Source: a virus. From it: a stretch of 58,573 nt of DNA. Below the pieces are notes generated by a model, which had not been told where the DNA came from, did not search any database, and saw nothing but the letters and a program-made list of their open reading frames with translations. Below, piece after piece: positions 32,471-41,658 of this stretch (its first letter is position 1; each line of letters starts with the position of its first letter). The translations under genes and the position numbers were made by a program. Location of the stretch: positions 1 through 58,573 of IMG/VR virus record IMGVR_UViG_3300031857_000201; one strand, given 5' to 3'.

Positions 32471-32628
32471 GTCTCTATCGTCTCGAATGCGTAATTCTTG
32501 TCCATGGTGATAGCCTTGATGACGCTGTGCAAGAATTTACTGAGCAATTAGATCTTTTAGGCACACAATTTGGCGCAATTGCTGACGTATACATTGCCAA
32601 TGCTGAAGGCATTGAGGAGCTAGAATGA
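32467..32628 (+). CDS. Small hypothetical protein (53 aa)
   Basis: The frame begins with an ATG that overlaps the previous stop (ATGA) and ends with TGA overlapping the next ATG, a perfectly coupled arrangement; GGAGG lies upstream. The peptide (LYRLECVILVHGDSLDDAV, TQFGAIADVYIANA) has a ferredoxin-like beta-alpha-beta pattern. Unknown function. Confidence 0.55.
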   Translation: MSLYRLECVILVHGDSLDDAVQEFTEQLDLLGTQFGAIADVYIANAEGIEELE

Positions 32629-33026
32629 CTACCTTTGAGCAAGTAGGTAAGTTCAGGAAAAAAATGGGCTTGCCAATATCAACCTTTCCTCATTTGCTTT
32701 CACCTGAAGAGTCGTCCTATTTTGTGCGATTCATCCTCGAGGAAATTTCTGAGTACATGAAAGCCTATGAAGAAAATTCTTTGGTTGATGCTGCTGACGC
32801 CATTGTCGATCTTGTGTATGTTGCTCTTGGTTGTGCTCATGCAATGGGCCTACCTTTTGATGATCTATTTGAAGTGGTACATGCGGCAAATATGAAAAAG
32901 CAACCGGCCGATGATTTCATACGCTCTACTCGAGGTCGCCAATACGATGTGGTCAAACCCATTGGCTGGACTGGCCCCGAAGGCGAGATGATTGCTATCC
33001 TCTCACAATACAAAGGTGGCGAATGA
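32625..33026 (+). CDS. MazG-like all-alpha NTP pyrophosphohydrolase (133 aa)
   Basis: The helix-forming metal motif is visible: E39-E40-x-x-E43 (LEEISEYM) followed by D58-x-x-x-D62 (DAIVDLVYVALG), then GLPFDDLFEVVHAANMKK, as in MazG/dUTPase-2/PRA-PH-type phage proteins. These hydrolyse (d)NTPs to NMPs and pyrophosphate. In this genome a dCTP-directed activity would supply dCMP to the dCMP-hydroxymethylase-like enzyme at 40873 and keep unmodified dCTP low (inference). The substrate cannot be told from sequence. Confidence 0.75.
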   Translation: MTTFEQVGKFRKKMGLPISTFPHLLSPEESSYFVRFILEEISEYMKAYEENSLVDAADAIVDLVYVALGCAHAMGLPFDDLFEVVHAANMKKQPADDFIRSTRGRQYDVVKPIGWTGPEGEMIAILSQYKGGE

Positions 33027-33388
33027 AAATCTCCGACCTAATTGATAAGTATGTCGAAACCAAAGCTTTGAAGGAAAGCTTAAATGAGGACATCAAAAAG
33101 GCAAACGAAAAGTTGGCCGCCATTGAAGCCGACATTATGGAACAAATGGCTCTTGCAGGAATTACGCAAGCCGCGTCGGAAAAAGCAAGCTGCACCATGC
33201 GTGAAACGCATCATCCATCCATTGAGGATTGGAACGTCTTCTACGATCATGTTGCAAAGACAAATCAATTTGAACTTCTTCACAAGCGTTTATCCTCTCA
33301 AGTCTTCCGTGAGCGGTGGGAGTCTGGAGATCTTATACCCGGTACGAAAATGTCTTCCGTCTGGGAACTTTCCGTTCGTCGCAAGTAA
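33023..33388 (+). CDS. Conserved phage protein, coiled coil plus C-terminal domain (121 aa)
   Basis: Residues 1-45 form a coiled coil (TKALKESLNEDIKKANEKL); the rest (IEDWNVFYDHVAKTNQFELL, SSQVFRERWESGDLIPGTK) is a block found in many phage proteins near single-strand binding and recombination genes, resembling Gp157-type proteins in layout. ATG overlaps the MazG-like stop. It may help DNA metabolism; not established. Confidence 0.55.
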   Translation: MKISDLIDKYVETKALKESLNEDIKKANEKLAAIEADIMEQMALAGITQAASEKASCTMRETHHPSIEDWNVFYDHVAKTNQFELLHKRLSSQVFRERWESGDLIPGTKMSSVWELSVRRK

Positions 33389-33407
33389 CTCGTTGAAAGG
33401 AGCCATC

Positions 33408-34154
33408 ATGGCCAAAACTAATAATGCTGTTGCACTGTTTGAAGATCAACTGGCCGCTATGGCCACAGAGAATGTCAAGGCCGAACAATCCGGTCTTACG
33501 GCCACGTTCCTGTCAACCAAAGGTGGAGTTCTAACTTACCGCGGTGACCCTATCACTGGCAATAAACTGGCCTGCGTTATTCTTGCAGCTCCAATTGAGC
33601 GCCTGTACTACTCGGATCGTTATGATCCTACCAAGATAGTAGGACCTAAGTGCTTTGCCATTGCTCCGGTAGCTACCGGCATGGGACCTGCCACAACTGC
33701 GGAGGCACCACAACATGAAAACTGCGAAGGTTGCCCACAAAACCAGTGGGGCTCGTCACCAACCGGTGGTAAAGGTAAAGCCTGCCGTGAAACACGTCGA
33801 CTCCTTCTCATCCCAGCAGATAGCATTACCACTGCGGAGTCTGTGGCTGCGGCAGAGGTCGCGGCGCTTCGACCGCCGGTCACCAGCATTAAGAATTATT
33901 CCAACTATGTACAAACAGTCGCCGCAACGCTAAAGCGCCCACCATTGGCTGTCATTACTGAGGTTGCTGTTGTACCGGATCCTAAGACGCAATTCAAGGT
34001 AACCTTCAGTATGGTCAAGGCGATTGACGATCCGGCGATTGTGCAGGCAATTATCAAGCGCTCTCAGGACGAGGTTCAAAGAGCTATTGAGACTGTAGGC
34101 CAAATGGAAGATGATGCGCCTGCTGCGCCTGTTGCTGAGTCAGATCGCTTCTAA
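33408..34154 (+). CDS. Conserved phage DNA-metabolism protein with cysteine cluster (248 aa)
   Basis: The true start is ATG 33408 after TTGAAAGGAG; a longer frame upstream is an artefact. The middle contains CEGCPQNQWGSSPTGGKGKAC (C-x2-C then a distant C) followed by RETRRLLLIPAD, a conserved block in a phage family often placed in replication modules. The C-terminus is acidic (MEDDAPAAPVAESDRF), as in single-strand DNA-binding proteins. An SSB-like or recombination mediator role is possible but unproven. Confidence 0.5.
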   Translation: MAKTNNAVALFEDQLAAMATENVKAEQSGLTATFLSTKGGVLTYRGDPITGNKLACVILAAPIERLYYSDRYDPTKIVGPKCFAIAPVATGMGPATTAEAPQHENCEGCPQNQWGSSPTGGKGKACRETRRLLLIPADSITTAESVAAAEVAALRPPVTSIKNYSNYVQTVAATLKRPPLAVITEVAVVPDPKTQFKVTFSMVKAIDDPAIVQAIIKRSQDEVQRAIETVGQMEDDAPAAPVAESDRF

Positions 34155-34452: not shown

Positions 34453-34701
34453 ATGAAAATGTTTACATTAATCTTTGTATGTACGATGCTGGTGAGTTGC
34501 TCATCAACATCCAACCCATCGCAGGCTTTGATACTTGATAAAGAGATCAATGCCATGAGCCGCAATGAAGTTATCATTGCAGTCAAAGAATGCGAAGTTA
34601 GTCGTATGCGCGCTGTATTGGTTATGGGTAAGCGTAAGATTGGTAACCATACAACAGATGTCGTCGTTGACGTAACTTGCGCACCTCTCTATTTCTACTA
34701 A
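34453..34701 (+). CDS. Predicted lipoprotein (82 aa)
   Basis: ATG 34453 (GAGG upstream) opens a lipoprotein signal: MKMFTLIFVCTMLVSC, with lipobox LVSC and cysteine at about residue 16, then SSTSNPSQ. The mature part (about 66 aa) contains two further cysteines (KECEVS, VTCAPLYFY), perhaps a disulfide. A phage lipoprotein among replication genes is out of place; superinfection exclusion at the cell envelope is a known role for such proteins and is one possible reading. Its stop overlaps the DNA polymerase start (TAATG). Confidence 0.65.
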   Translation: MKMFTLIFVCTMLVSCSSTSNPSQALILDKEINAMSRNEVIIAVKECEVSRMRAVLVMGKRKIGNHTTDVVVDVTCAPLYFY

Positions 34702-36518
34702 TGATACCTATATTCCTTGACTTTGAGACAGAAGGCATCGAGGCTCGCCCGACGTATCCGCCTAAACCGGTGGGTCTTGCTGTGTATGATCCTACAGGTC
34801 AGTTCGCTGATGGCTATTTTGCTTTTGGCCATATTACAGGTAATAATTCTACTTTTGACGCCGTAAGGCGCATGATGGGAGAAATGTATGATTCAAATCG
34901 ACCGCTATGCTTTCATAACGCCCTATTTGACTTGGATGTTGCTGATACTCATTTTGGCTTGGCTATCCCCGACGCATCTAGGTTACACGACACTCTCATT
35001 CTCTCTTTTCTCTTCGATCCACATGTACCTTCATTATCGCTCAAAGATCTCGTGGTCCATTGGAGCCTCGACACCCCAGAAGAACGAGATGAGCTTAAAG
35101 AATGGATCATTAATAACGTCCCTGACGCTAAACGAAAAAAGTCACAATGGGGCGCACACATCAGCAAAGGACCCGTCGAGCTGGTAGGTCGTTACGCCAA
35201 GGCTGACGTGCGGCTTACTGCTAAGCTATTTGAGTTTACCGCTTCAAACGTTTTACCGGCTCAGCAGGCGCCGTATATACGTGAACTTGAACTGATCCCA
35301 CTGTTGCTTGAAAACTCACGTTTAGGCGTTCGAGTTGATGTGGCTGGGTTATCAGCAGCAAAAGAACAGGCCATAAAAGATATTGAGGCTTGTAATGTTT
35401 GGGTTCGTGCATTGTTGAATTCTCCTGAATTGAATGTCGACAGCGATTCTCAGCTGGTCGAAAGTATTTATCAATCGGAGCATTGGGACAAAAATAAAGC
35501 CTGGCCTACCACAGACAAAGGCCAGAAACAAGCCACTAAAGAAGCACTAGAGGAGATGCTTACTCATGAACACTTGCGAGATGTCCTTAGGTATCGTGCA
35601 AATCTATCTACATGCCTCTCAACTTTCATTGACCCTTGGCTCACATCGGGCCAGCATACCGGCAGAATCTATACCAATTGGAACAGTGTTAGAGGTGAGC
35701 GTGGAGGCACACGAACAGGACGGCTCAGTAGCACTCCTAATTTCCAAAATGCACCCATTAGATATCCGAAGGTAAACCTACCACCGGATCTCAATGTGGC
35801 GCCATTGCCTTTGGTACGTAGTTTCATTCTACCGGATGAAGGCCATAAACTGGTAGCCTGCGACTTCAATGCTCAAGAGTTGCGTATCTTTGCTCATTTT
35901 GAAGGTGGCAATCTTATGCAGCAATACCAGCAAGATGCTCGTGCTGATTTGCATACCTACGCAGCCAAGATGATGACCGAGGCATCCGGCCGTGAGGTTA
36001 GTCGTACTTACTCAAAAGGCGTCTCATTTGCTATTCTCTATGGGGCTGGCCCAAAGAAAATCAGTGAGATGCTTGAGATCGACTACGACTTGGCCAAGAC
36101 ATTGATGGATGCCTATACCACAGCCGTGGCTCCAGGCCTCAAGGCGATGCAAGCCACCATGAGGACAAGGTACAAATTAGGCCAACCCATCAAAACCCTT
36201 GGCGGGCGTCTGGTCAAAATGGAGCCACCTAAGATTATCAATGGCCGGCTACGTGAGTTTGATTACAAAGGTGTTAATCTACTCATTCAAGGCTCAGCTG
36301 CTGATCAAGCTAAGGCGGCCATGTTGCTATTCCAAAAGACACGGCAAGGTAGTCGCCTATTGTTAAGCGTCCATGATGAACTGGTTATTTCTACACCTGA
36401 GGATACTGTGGAACGTGAGGCAGAATGCTTAACACAGGCTATGTGCCATGCTTTGCCCATGGATGTGCCTATGGTGAGTGACTATAAAGTTGGTAACTCT
36501 TATCAGGAAACTAAATAA
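34701..36518 (+). CDS. Family-A DNA polymerase with 3'-5' exonuclease (605 aa)
   Basis: The exonuclease domain has ExoI IFLDFETEG (D7, E9), ExoII FHNALFDLDVAD and ExoIII YAKADVRLT. The polymerase domain has TRTGRLSSTPNFQNAP, motif A ACDFNAQELR (catalytic D388), motif B SYSKG-type K439 followed by SFAILYGAG, and motif C SVHDE (H558-D559-E560). The length is that of T7-like replicative polymerases. The start is ATG 34701, overlapping the lipoprotein stop, not the upstream TTG. It is followed without gap by nuclease and helicase genes. It must accept any modified dCTP made by the downstream cassette. Confidence 0.95.
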   Translation: MIPIFLDFETEGIEARPTYPPKPVGLAVYDPTGQFADGYFAFGHITGNNSTFDAVRRMMGEMYDSNRPLCFHNALFDLDVADTHFGLAIPDASRLHDTLILSFLFDPHVPSLSLKDLVVHWSLDTPEERDELKEWIINNVPDAKRKKSQWGAHISKGPVELVGRYAKADVRLTAKLFEFTASNVLPAQQAPYIRELELIPLLLENSRLGVRVDVAGLSAAKEQAIKDIEACNVWVRALLNSPELNVDSDSQLVESIYQSEHWDKNKAWPTTDKGQKQATKEALEEMLTHEHLRDVLRYRANLSTCLSTFIDPWLTSGQHTGRIYTNWNSVRGERGGTRTGRLSSTPNFQNAPIRYPKVNLPPDLNVAPLPLVRSFILPDEGHKLVACDFNAQELRIFAHFEGGNLMQQYQQDARADLHTYAAKMMTEASGREVSRTYSKGVSFAILYGAGPKKISEMLEIDYDLAKTLMDAYTTAVAPGLKAMQATMRTRYKLGQPIKTLGGRLVKMEPPKIINGRLREFDYKGVNLLIQGSAADQAKAAMLLFQKTRQGSRLLLSVHDELVISTPEDTVEREAECLTQAMCHALPMDVPMVSDYKVGNSYQETK

Positions 36519-38806: not shown

Positions 38807-38857
38807 AAAGTAAGCATGTCATACACCACCACTATTTTTACACAAGGAGATTCTGCT

Positions 38858-39067
38858 ATGTCAGAGGTAAAGCGCCGCCGTGTCAATAAGCAAGCAAAGA
38901 TTAAAGTGCTGGTTGAGGAAAACCCTAAGCGCAATAATACGCTAGCCGCAGACCGGTTTGCATTATATGAAAATGGTATGACAGTCGAGGAATACGTTGC
39001 TGCGGGCGGCCGTACAGGCGATATTGCACATGACGTTGCTGCAGGGTATATCGAACTGGAAGACTAA
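38858..39067 (+). CDS. Small hypothetical protein (69 aa)
   Basis: AAGGAG precedes ATG 38858 (MSEVKRRRVNKQAK); an earlier ATG at 38816 has no site. The protein is basic at the N-terminus and acidic at the C-terminus, with LAADRFALYENGMTVEEYVAAGG suggesting a small helical DNA-binding domain. Its stop overlaps the glycosyltransferase start (TAATG), so it belongs to the same operon. Confidence 0.5.
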   Translation: MSEVKRRRVNKQAKIKVLVEENPKRNNTLAADRFALYENGMTVEEYVAAGGRTGDIAHDVAAGYIELED

Positions 39068-39957
39068 TGAAGATCCTTATAACCGGCGTCACCGAGACGC
39101 ATACAAATCATCCACAGCGTGCAAGTTCCACAAAGTTTGTGTCAGTACCTGAGTTGATGCGTAACGCGTTTGAGCGACTGGTACATGATGTAGATCATCG
39201 AGCAGTAGGGGCAGGTGAGGATCTTTCTGAGTATCAAAAGGTCTTCATCTACCTGTACCCTGTAGACCATAACGCAGTTAATGTTAATGGCGCTATATGG
39301 GCATTGCAACAACGGCCAGACGCTTGGCTTTGTCTTGATGATTGGTCGTTTCAAAAATTGCTACCTACGTGGGGCAACTTTATTGACACCAAGCTACTTA
39401 CCAATCGTACATGGTTAGCACCTTTATTTCCATGGGGCGACGTTAAACAGATGGGTCTGCCGGTCGATGATATACGTCATTGGGACCCATCACCTTTGTA
39501 CAACTTGCCTAAAGTACATAGACTACGTTGGCAAGAAAGAAAAACTGAATGGTACAACGCCTCATTATCAAAGGATGCGCATGAGTGGGCAGATCGGCAA
39601 AATCTTACCTGGCCTGTTCGTGCCGTGGGTGGAAAATCACTTGGACAACCTAGGATTTTGGAGTCTCAAATTGTCTGGGAATATGGATCCTATAAAGGCG
39701 TGCTTTGTCCTACCTATGAACATGCCGGATGCGGATGGTGGCGCGTCAGATACTTACATGCTGCACATGCTGGAGCTATACTCGGTAGCGACCCCAAAGA
39801 AACCGGGATGATCCATCCTGCATATGGATACACACTAAAAGAAATAGAGAAAATGGGCGACGAGGCAAGAGAATACTTGGCCTGGTTGCAAGCAGACAAA
39901 CTAAACGTTGCAACTTTGCATGAAACAATGCAAAAAGTGGAAGGGTGGCTTGCATGA
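39067..39957 (+). CDS. Probable GT-B glycosyltransferase (296 aa)
   Basis: The N-terminal half begins with a Rossmann strand (MKILITG), has YQKVFIYLYPVDHNAVN and PDAWLCLDDWSF, and is about 150 aa. The second half has GKSLGQPRILESQIVWEYGSYKG, shown only by its beginning and end (GKSLGQ, WEYGSYKG), and GCGWWRVRYLHAAHAGAIL, the acidic/aromatic-plus-small-residue pattern of a GT-B donor-sugar site. The length and opening resemble phage DNA glucosyltransferases. Placement two genes before a dCMP-hydroxymethylase-like enzyme suggests it glycosylates hydroxymethylcytosine in DNA. The family is assigned by pattern, not by a search; another Rossmann-fold enzyme is possible. Confidence 0.5.
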   Translation: MKILITGVTETHTNHPQRASSTKFVSVPELMRNAFERLVHDVDHRAVGAGEDLSEYQKVFIYLYPVDHNAVNVNGAIWALQQRPDAWLCLDDWSFQKLLPTWGNFIDTKLLTNRTWLAPLFPWGDVKQMGLPVDDIRHWDPSPLYNLPKVHRLRWQERKTEWYNASLSKDAHEWADRQNLTWPVRAVGGKSLGQPRILESQIVWEYGSYKGVLCPTYEHAGCGWWRVRYLHAAHAGAILGSDPKETGMIHPAYGYTLKEIEKMGDEAREYLAWLQADKLNVATLHETMQKVEGWLA

Positions 39958-40898
39958 TCATAATTCTTGAAGGGCCAGATGGTGGGGGTAAAACCACGCT
40001 ATCTGAAAAGTTGCGACAAATGCTTAATCATGAAAGATTGACCAATGTCGTAAAACATGGCCCTTATACCGGTATGTCGTCTGAAGAATTATGCAAGACA
40101 TACTTCAGATCGATGTCACAAGCATTAACCTATGATGACCACGTTATTCTTGATCGCAGTTGGTTATCAGAGCCAATCTATGGCGAGGTCTATCGTAATG
40201 GCGTAACTCGTGTAGATATGCCACGCCATCGAATGCTAGAACGTGTGGCATTAACTCGTGGCGCCGTGGTTATCCATTGCCAACCTGAGTTTGCTTTATG
40301 CGTTGATACTTTCAAGACACGCAAAGATATTGAATACCTTGACACCACTGAGCAACTAGGCAAAGTATATGATGCGTATGAAACGCTGCCTATGCATACA
40401 TGCTTGCCCATCGTGCACTATGATTATGAAAAAGATACTGTTAGTGACCTATTAGAAAAAGTCATGGCAAAGTCAGTGCCTAATCGAGCATCCGGTGGTG
40501 GTTGCTTTAAAGAAGGCAATATCCTTATGCTTTGTGATAAAGGCCCTCGCACTAATATGCGAGCATCTGCAGCTGTTGTGCCATTCATTAACTTTTTGGA
40601 CGATGATGGCCCCAGTCGTATGTTGGCTCATGCACTAGAAAACGAAGGCGTGCCTGAGAAAGATCTTTACTGGATCAACACACAAAATTATCTAGGCACA
40701 CCAACTGACGCAAAATTCATTAATCAGCTTAAGCCTAGCCGAATCTTTGCCTTAGGCAATAACGCCTATAGTTGGGCTATTAACGCCGGTGTACAAGTGT
40801 ACAAACTGCCACCGCCGCTATATCATATGCAGCACTTCCCGCATTTGCCATACCACATTACTGAGAGCGATTATGGAAATACCACTCATTCATCGTGA
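39954..40898 (+). CDS. P-loop (deoxy)nucleotide kinase fused to a UDG-like domain (314 aa)
   Basis: ATG 39954 (MIIILEGPDGGGKTTL) has a GAAGGG site and overlaps the previous stop. Residues 1-165 are a thymidylate-kinase-like P-loop domain: Walker A GPDGGGKTT, DHVILDRSWLSEPIYGEVYR (DR-W motif) and VHYDYEKD. Residues about 175-314 look like the uracil-DNA-glycosylase fold: ILMLCDKGPR, a MLAHALENEGVPEKDLYWINT stretch, LKPSRIFALGNNAYSWA and a final HMQHFPHLPYH in place of the HPS loop, with no catalytic Asp/Asn obvious in motif 1. It could phosphorylate hydroxymethyl-dCMP or, alternatively, base hydroxyl groups in DNA, with the second domain binding the modified base. Confidence 0.6.
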   Translation: MIIILEGPDGGGKTTLSEKLRQMLNHERLTNVVKHGPYTGMSSEELCKTYFRSMSQALTYDDHVILDRSWLSEPIYGEVYRNGVTRVDMPRHRMLERVALTRGAVVIHCQPEFALCVDTFKTRKDIEYLDTTEQLGKVYDAYETLPMHTCLPIVHYDYEKDTVSDLLEKVMAKSVPNRASGGGCFKEGNILMLCDKGPRTNMRASAAVVPFINFLDDDGPSRMLAHALENEGVPEKDLYWINTQNYLGTPTDAKFINQLKPSRIFALGNNAYSWAINAGVQVYKLPPPLYHMQHFPHLPYHITESDYGNTTHSS

Positions 40899-41658
40899 AG
40901 AAGATCTCATTCTCATATATAAAGCACTTGAATACCGTGGAACTCGATCTGAGCCACGGGGAGAGGGTACTTTGGAAATTGAGAACTTTACTTATACTGT
41001 TAATCCTTTCGTGCGTTTTAACAACTTTGTCGGTCGTAACTTTAATCTTAATTATCTTAAGCGTGAAATGGCTTGGTACATAAAGGCTGATCCATTTGAT
41101 ACCTCTATTGCCGAGCATGCTGCGCAATGGGGCAAAATTGTCGTTAATGGCAAGTTAAATAGCAACTATGGTTCTTATTGGTTTGGTAAATATGGCGTAC
41201 GCCATGTTGTTAGTGTACTTCAAAAAGACCCTATGAGCCGTCGTGCAGTTATTCCTATGTACGGCACTGACGTTGCTCATATGGATAGCGAGGCCAAAGA
41301 CGTGCCTTGCACAACTGCCATTGAGTTTCGTCTACGCCGAGGCCGGCTTAACGCAAGAGCCATAATGCGTAGCCAAGACATTCTATGGGGGATGGCTAAT
41401 GATCTTCCTACTTTCTCATTCTTACAAGAAATTGTAGCAGCTTTGCTTAATGCAGAAGTAGGTACATTGACAATATCTGTTGGCTCATTCCACGTTTACG
41501 AGTCCAGAATGAAGATGTTTAAAGACATTATTGAAAAGTCAACGCATCAACCTGTAGCTGACCCACCCCCAAGGATTCAGAGATACGAGGCTCATATGTT
41601 GATGGATAAGCACATTGACAGTTCTCATGCGTTCTCACGCTGGCTCCTTAATGTATAA
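40873..41658 (+). CDS. Thymidylate-synthase-family enzyme, dCMP hydroxymethylase type (261 aa)
   Basis: The catalytic cysteine is in VPCTTAIEF (C146); SRR (122-124) and R166-S-Q-D169 are phosphate/substrate residues; FHVYE gives H207 and Y209. These positions coincide with E. coli ThyA numbering (C146, R166, D169, H207, Y209). ThyA Asn177, which selects dUMP, is replaced by Asp177 (MANDLPTF). Asp at this place is established for T4 dCMP hydroxymethylase and switches preference to dCMP. I therefore call a dCMP hydroxymethylase (or dCMP methyltransferase). Start ATG 40873 lies 26 bp inside the kinase gene, with GAGAG upstream. Confidence 0.75.
   Translation: MEIPLIHREEDLILIYKALEYRGTRSEPRGEGTLEIENFTYTVNPFVRFNNFVGRNFNLNYLKREMAWYIKADPFDTSIAEHAAQWGKIVVNGKLNSNYGSYWFGKYGVRHVVSVLQKDPMSRRAVIPMYGTDVAHMDSEAKDVPCTTAIEFRLRRGRLNARAIMRSQDILWGMANDLPTFSFLQEIVAALLNAEVGTLTISVGSFHVYESRMKMFKDIIEKSTHQPVADPPPRIQRYEAHMLMDKHIDSSHAFSRWLLNV

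Follow-up and report, generated by a model that had tools for sequence, protein, structure and literature searches.

Genes and conservation of the locus

The viral DNA IMGVR_UViG_3300031857_000201 from IMG/VR, a stretch of 58,573 nucleotides referred to here as the window, contains three adjacent genes on the plus strand (39067-41658) which an earlier note, made from the sequence alone, had presented as a candidate cytosine-hypermodification cassette. The first gene (39067-39957) encodes a protein of 296 residues, assigned as a GT-B glycosyltransferase (GT) on the basis of its AlphaFold2 model, Foldseek comparisons, residue invariants and gene context. The second (39954-40898) codes for a thymidylate-kinase-like P-loop kinase (approximately residues 1-180) fused to a uracil-DNA glycosylase (UDG)-like domain (DNA positions 40503-40895), recognized through phrog_761 and Foldseek. 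The product of the third gene (40873-41658), 261 residues long, is a thymidylate synthase homologue of the dCMP hydroxymethylase type, as judged from Pfam family PF00303 and its residue marks. In agreement with the note, these genes overlap end to end: the stop of the GT gene shares the sequence ATGA with the kinase ATG at 39954, which is the start used by most homologues (a GTG at 39945 is a longer alternative), and the synthase ATG at 40873 lies 26 nt inside the kinase gene. About 60 IMG/VR contigs have the order GT-kinase/UDG-synthase, their GT identities being 58-100%. NG86 estimates for the three genes (dN of ~0.09-0.16 versus dS >1) indicate that purifying selection acts on all of them.

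The GT start is overlapped by one base (TAATG at 39065-39069) by a conserved plus-strand ORF of 83 residues (38816-39067) without a Pfam match. Throughout the contigs of the lineage, genes for MazG, PolA, a PD-(D/E)XK exonuclease and an SNF2-type helicase lie upstream of the cassette. In the window, the family-A DNA polymerase PolA is encoded at 34677-36518 (+; PF00476, E 1.5e-59), and the MazG-like gene that the note had placed at 32625 was confirmed as coding for a MazG/HisE-type all-alpha NTP pyrophosphatase (32625-33026, +; PF01503, E 8e-15, above the Pfam cut-off; phrog_671, E 4e-23), whose upstream position is kept across the lineage. Since a 127-bp direct repeat is found at the two ends of the window, this is probably a complete, circularly assembled phage genome of ~58.4 kb. 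Its description as 'podovirus-type' could not be established, the PHROGs matches being a portal, a terminase, a head-protease and a weak tape-measure protein.

The synthase homologue has the residues of dCMP hydroxymethylases

The product of 40873-41658 matched PF00303 with an E value of 7e-20, and its closest PDB sequences were the CMP hydroxymethylase MilA (1e-16) and the T4 dCMP hydroxymethylase (5e-13), all thymidylate synthases ranking lower. Residues are numbered as in E. coli thymidylate synthase, which coincides with the numbering of the window enzyme itself. According to MetaGPA (PMC8670742), positions 177 and 147 are the best at telling ordinary synthases apart from those of phages with modified cytosine; at these positions the window enzyme has Asp and Thr, the same as T4 gp42 and MilA. 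The Asn-to-Asp change at position 177, to which the note had drawn attention, is thus present, and it was invariant in 27 of 27 lineage homologues. In the MilA paper (PMC5175136), this Asp is the residue of cytosine-specific enzymes, and S167 that of deoxy-specific ones. The residues C146, T147, R166, S167, D169, D177, H207 and Y209 are all present, G173 is also kept, and in the synthase alignment A3 the catalytic Cys146 and the substrate and folate residues R166, S167, D169, H207 and Y209 were invariant.

If the enzyme used dUMP, the product would be 5-hydroxymethyldeoxyuridine (5hmdU) and, in the end, a hypermodified thymine. This would fit the annotation of the related enzymes of phages AXL_3 and PW916 as thymidylate synthase or dUMP hydroxymethylase. 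However, D177 and T147 are invariant, the dUMP hydroxymethylase of SPO1, used as a control, has Asn at position 177, and the annotated AXL_3 and PW916 enzymes have Asp. As a further control, phage 25 and FBB1 have canonical td genes, which likewise code for Asn at 177, and every synthase of the GT-bearing phages has Asp177, save such extra canonical td genes. The dUMP reading was rejected on the basis of D177, T147 and the SPO1 control, and we regard it as the least probable of the explanations considered; the residues are of the dCMP type, as proposed in the note.

A different outcome is known from RB69, whose synthase homologue produces 5-hydroxy-dCMP (PMC13390438), and a synthase of this kind, as in RB69 and Mosigvirus, would lead to a sugar ether-linked straight to C5. 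Morganella phage Rgz1 lends this possibility some weight, as it combines a distant GT homologue, an RB69-type synthase and an arabinose module. Yet the two RB69-type synthases, RB69 ORF048c and Rgz1 gp33, have N169, V173 and F209 (marks derived here from these two sequences only), whereas the window enzyme and its lineage have D169, G173 and Y209 like T4 gp42. An RB69-type synthase was rejected on these three residues, and formation of 5-hydroxy-dCMP by the window enzyme is considered very unlikely. In thymidylate synthase, D169 contacts folate, so that its retention favours folate-dependent hydroxymethylation by the 40873 product. In RB69 itself (locus L198:2048-4214), a gene of the thymidylate kinase type, related to that of the window, is found close to the synthase with D169N, G173V and Y209F; these three changes are possible marker residues of 5-hydroxy-dCMP synthases. 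Altogether, the 40873 product agrees with the dCMP hydroxymethylases in all marks tested and is predicted to convert dCMP to 5-hydroxymethyl-dCMP (hmdCMP).

The kinase-UDG fusion is probably associated with hydroxymethylation

The N-terminal part of the 39954-40898 product matched the thymidylate kinases of phrog_761 (E 2e-21), with Pfam matches below the cut-off, and is predicted to be an hmdCMP kinase. For the 131 C-terminal residues, modelled with only modest confidence (pLDDT 72), the top Foldseek matches were family-4 UDG, UdgX and SMUG1 (best E 4e-3), while a PDB sequence search returned no UDG match and a single one at chance level. Of the kinase-UDG fusion described in the note, the UDG-like half is more weakly supported, its assignment being probable, not firm. 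A role of this second domain could be to bind cytosine derivatives or to proofread them.

The same fusion adjoins a D177 synthase in Stenotrophomonas phage AXL_3, Pseudoxanthomonas phage PW916 and MW202621, and no GT was detected in the loci fetched from them, which suggests that the fusion belongs to the hydroxymethylation and not to the sugar step. In AXL_3 (L004:7602-10744) and PW916 (L008:934-4098), genes for a methyltransferase, a MazG-like hydrolase, the kinase-UDG fusion and the D177 synthase are consecutive, without a GT. The synthases of both carry the thymidylate synthase or dUMP hydroxymethylase labels mentioned above; given their Asp177, they are probably cytosine-directed and these annotations look wrong.

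Predicted fold and conserved residues of the GT

Searches of Pfam, NCBIfam and PADLOC gave no family above the cut-off for the 39067-39957 product, its only match being an unnamed PHROG. A search of its profile against PDB sequences gave nothing at E<=1, nor was there a Pfam match at E<=1 to the TET-associated glycosyltransferase (TAGT) family PF20691. The AlphaFold2 model (pLDDT 88.3, pTM 0.86) is predicted to adopt a GT-B fold, as the note had supposed: in a Foldseek comparison with the PDB, the top three matches were all T4 β-glucosyltransferase (BGT), the best with an E value of 6.7e-7 and a TM score of 0.56. In 34 of 34 diverse relatives, D92, E199, R226, R228, E245 and Q275 were invariant, with the signatures xDW and GWWRxR. 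As far as a manual sequence alignment can tell, D92 falls near the catalytic D100 of BGT and R226 near BGT R269. For the HY126 glycosyltransferase (PDB 9ir0), no describing paper was found in the open literature.

The GT family occurs together with hydroxymethylcytosine makers

Distant homologues of the GT (~25-35% identity) were found in Aeromonas T4-like phages, Erwinia phage FBB1, C48C1, DSL-LC01, Gordonia phages and others. Among 26 records picked for holding the GT, several of which share ancestry so that the effective number is ~7 lineages, 23 encode a D177/T147-type thymidylate synthase homologue. Synthase relatives are otherwise found in only ~4% of 50,697 phage records. The remaining three (C48C1 and two IMG/VR relatives) are exactly those without a D177 synthase, and they encode a Tet_JBP oxygenase. 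In the C48C1-type loci, TET would take over from dCMP hydroxymethylase as the source of hydroxymethylcytosine. This co-occurrence suggests that the family probably consists of hydroxy(methyl)cytosine-DNA glycosyltransferases.

Several further arrangements were seen around these genes. In C48C1 (L002:6586-10030) and in loci L119-L137, the Tet_JBP oxygenase, the GT-family gene and a gene for UDP-galactopyranose mutase (UGM) are clustered. A C5-cytosine-methylase-like protein of ~420 residues adjoins the GT in three loci (L202:7015-8289, L205:3320-4564 and L158:7454-8710) of phages that also encode dCMP hydroxymethylase. DSL-LC01 and Gordonia phages have a second, diverged GT paralogue close to the first one (L113:8148-9134, L115:5895-6872 and L118:6406-7416), which possibly adds a second sugar. 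The only cellular relative of the GT came from a Bacteroidetes metagenome-assembled genome (MAG), in a synthase-GT-UGM locus that is probably viral and gives no pointer to a host.

Sugar-donor genes and a possible furanose

In several lineages unrelated to one another, the GT directly adjoins UGM (PF03275): this is so in 19 Aeromonas and two Stenotrophomonas records and in FBB1, C48C1 and DSL-LC01. The adjacency is also found in the IMG/VR relatives of C48C1 (TET, GT, UGM), in most of those of DSL-LC01, in locus L151 and in the Bacteroidetes MAG locus. Few phages otherwise encode UGM, which occurs in 86 of 50,697 records. This linkage in the relatives, like the family co-occurrence with hydroxymethylcytosine makers, goes beyond the earlier note. 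Within the marine loci L199-L203, the UGM-bearing members (L199, L200, L202 and L203) encode a D177 synthase, a dCMP deaminase, a cytidylyltransferase-like protein, an NAD-dependent epimerase, the GT, UGM and a C5-methylase-like protein, in this order. This gene set would match the needs of a route from UDP-Glc through UDP-Gal to UDP-galactofuranose (UDP-Galf) and on to a sugar on hydroxymethylcytosine. In Rgz1 (L210:7372-13791), a more distant GT homologue lies between the genes for arabinose-5-phosphate isomerase and a nucleotide-sugar enzyme, in an arabinose module of the RB69 type, and the synthase of this phage has N169 like RB69 ORF048c.

From these neighbourhoods, the related phages plausibly use furanose donors, either UDP-galactofuranose or an arabinose nucleotide. 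We tentatively propose, at somewhat less than even odds, that the GT family consists of phage DNA furanosyltransferases making galactofuranosyl- or other furanosyl-5-hydroxymethylcytosine, through dCMP hydroxymethylase or TET depending on the lineage. In the GT tree, rooted at its midpoint, UGM-linked clades stand on both sides of the fork to the clade of the window. Genes for making a sugar donor were not detected in the window's own lineage, so that its donor must be a nucleotide sugar of the host, which could be UDP-Galf, UDP-Gal, UDP-Glc or another. No description of a furanosyl-5-hydroxymethylcytosine nucleobase was found in the open literature searched. Nothing relevant on galactofuranose in phage DNA was found in the openly accessible literature either, which is weak evidence with subscription journals outside the scope.

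Proposed pathway and its weighing

Taking these data together, we propose that the cassette replaces genomic cytosine with glycosylated 5-hydroxymethylcytosine, with a probability of about 0.8. The MazG-like enzyme would hydrolyse dCTP to dCMP, which the 40873 product, of the dCMP class by its residues, would convert with methylene-tetrahydrofolate to hmdCMP. The thymidylate-kinase-like domain would phosphorylate this to hmdCDP and the host nucleoside diphosphate kinase to hmdCTP, for incorporation by the phage PolA. Finally, the GT-B enzyme would move a sugar from a nucleotide sugar onto this hydroxymethyl group, in all likelihood after its incorporation into DNA; for this step the fold comes from prediction and the substrate from family context, with acceptor and sugar deduced. 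The proposal draws on the enzyme classes with their key residues, the fold, the conserved operon and family co-occurrence, all from sequence or prediction, and the cytosine-hypermodification reading of the note survived every computational test able to refute it.

Several points weigh against this proposal. The likeness to T4 BGT is at the level of the fold only (TM 0.56, 12% identity), and GT4, SenB and other GT-B enzymes match the model nearly as well. An hhalign comparison of the GT profile with T4 BGT gave a non-significant probability of 1%. A GT-B fold is thus indicated but not membership in the BGT family. The Glu of BGT that binds the ribose of UDP apparently corresponds to Tyr229 in the window GT (manual alignment). 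Instead of DNA, a nucleotide or some other molecule could be the acceptor of this predicted transferase. UGM was not found in the window, in its lineage or in the Gordonia phages, and dCMP deaminase was not found in the lineage of the window. Tet_JBP/TET was also looked for in the window and its lineage and not found.

An alternative is that the same route ends at 5-hydroxymethylcytosine or 5-methylcytosine in the DNA, with a GT that is only co-transcribed and acts on a capsid protein, a cell-surface glycan or a free nucleotide. The many acceptors served by the GT-B fold and the nearly equal matches to GT4 and SenB would be in keeping with this, and Xp12-type enzymes do methylate dCMP (PMC5175136). 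Nevertheless, across the whole lineage the GT gene and the hmdCMP genes have an overlap of a few bases, and a hydroxymethylcytosine source was present in 26 of 26 GT records, in the form of one or the other of two enzymes that are not related. We therefore consider this alternative unlikely, and glycosylation of hydroxymethylcytosine the better explanation of the cassette.

The GT represents a candidate DNA-glycosyltransferase family, unnamed in Pfam and NCBIfam, whose members occur in phages of separate lineages and are coupled to one or the other of two hydroxymethylcytosine routes. The final DNA base may be previously undescribed, as the GT of the relatives adjoins furanose-donor genes. New glycosylated cytosines bear on evasion of restriction and CRISPR, on defence by type IV restriction or by glycosylases, and on enzymatic tools for 5-hydroxymethylcytosine (5hmC).

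Comparison with known systems

In T4, the dCTPase gp56, gp42, gp1 and glucosyltransferases yield DNA with glucosyl-hydroxymethylcytosine. The window shares the four activities, in its case predicted: a pyrophosphatase, a D177-type hydroxymethylase, a dNMP kinase and a GT-B glycosyltransferase. In contrast to T4, its GT has no detectable sequence relation to BGT, its pyrophosphatase is of the MazG/PRA-PH type, its kinase is of the thymidylate kinase type and fused to a UDG-like domain, and the genes form a compact operon in a 58-kb genome.

A carbamoyltransferase of the NodU/TobZ class has been shown to make 5-carbamoyloxymethylcytosine (MetaGPA, PMC8670742). In this 5hmC carbamoyltransferase system with the Xp15 layout, a D177 synthase and MazG also stand beside the final modifying enzyme, and Xp15-like phages have a replication chassis (helicase, exonuclease, MazG) related to that of the window. 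They differ in having the NodU/TobZ carbamoyltransferase where the window has the GT, and in having a dCMP deaminase, which the window lacks. With part of the chassis and the D177 synthase shared and a different last enzyme, the final decorating enzyme seems to have been exchanged on a common hydroxymethylation base. The Xp15 relative of the window gene at 33084-34154 (L007:8509-9339; 29% over 180 residues) sits directly before the NodU-type carbamoyltransferase.

The arabinosylation system of RB69 and Mosigvirus likewise has an enzyme of the synthase superfamily, a GT-B transferase and a related kinase (RB69 ORF045c, a weak match to the kinase-UDG profile), and in Rgz1 a gene homologous to the GT family of the window is placed inside such a module. 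RB69 differs in that its synthase, lacking D169, makes 5-hydroxy-dCMP, and no match to the GT family was found in the RB69 regions tested. The phage clusters of TET with TAGT (PF20691) are resembled by the C48C1-type phages, in which a homologue of the window GT lies beside the Tet_JBP oxygenase; the window differs in that its GT has no PF20691 match and no TET is present.

Petrov et al. (2010; PMC2993671) described the phages 44RR, 31 and 25 as having gene 42 and no known glucosyltransferase, which raised the question of what decorates the base in Aeromonas phages such as 25. In phage 25 (L001:4896-7074), we found UGM and a homologue of the window GT, both annotated as hypothetical, a pair not present in 44RR. 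With this UGM-GT pair, there is a concrete candidate for the gene-42-dependent glycosyltransferase that had been missing from phage 25, and, as this is a named phage, the prediction is testable.

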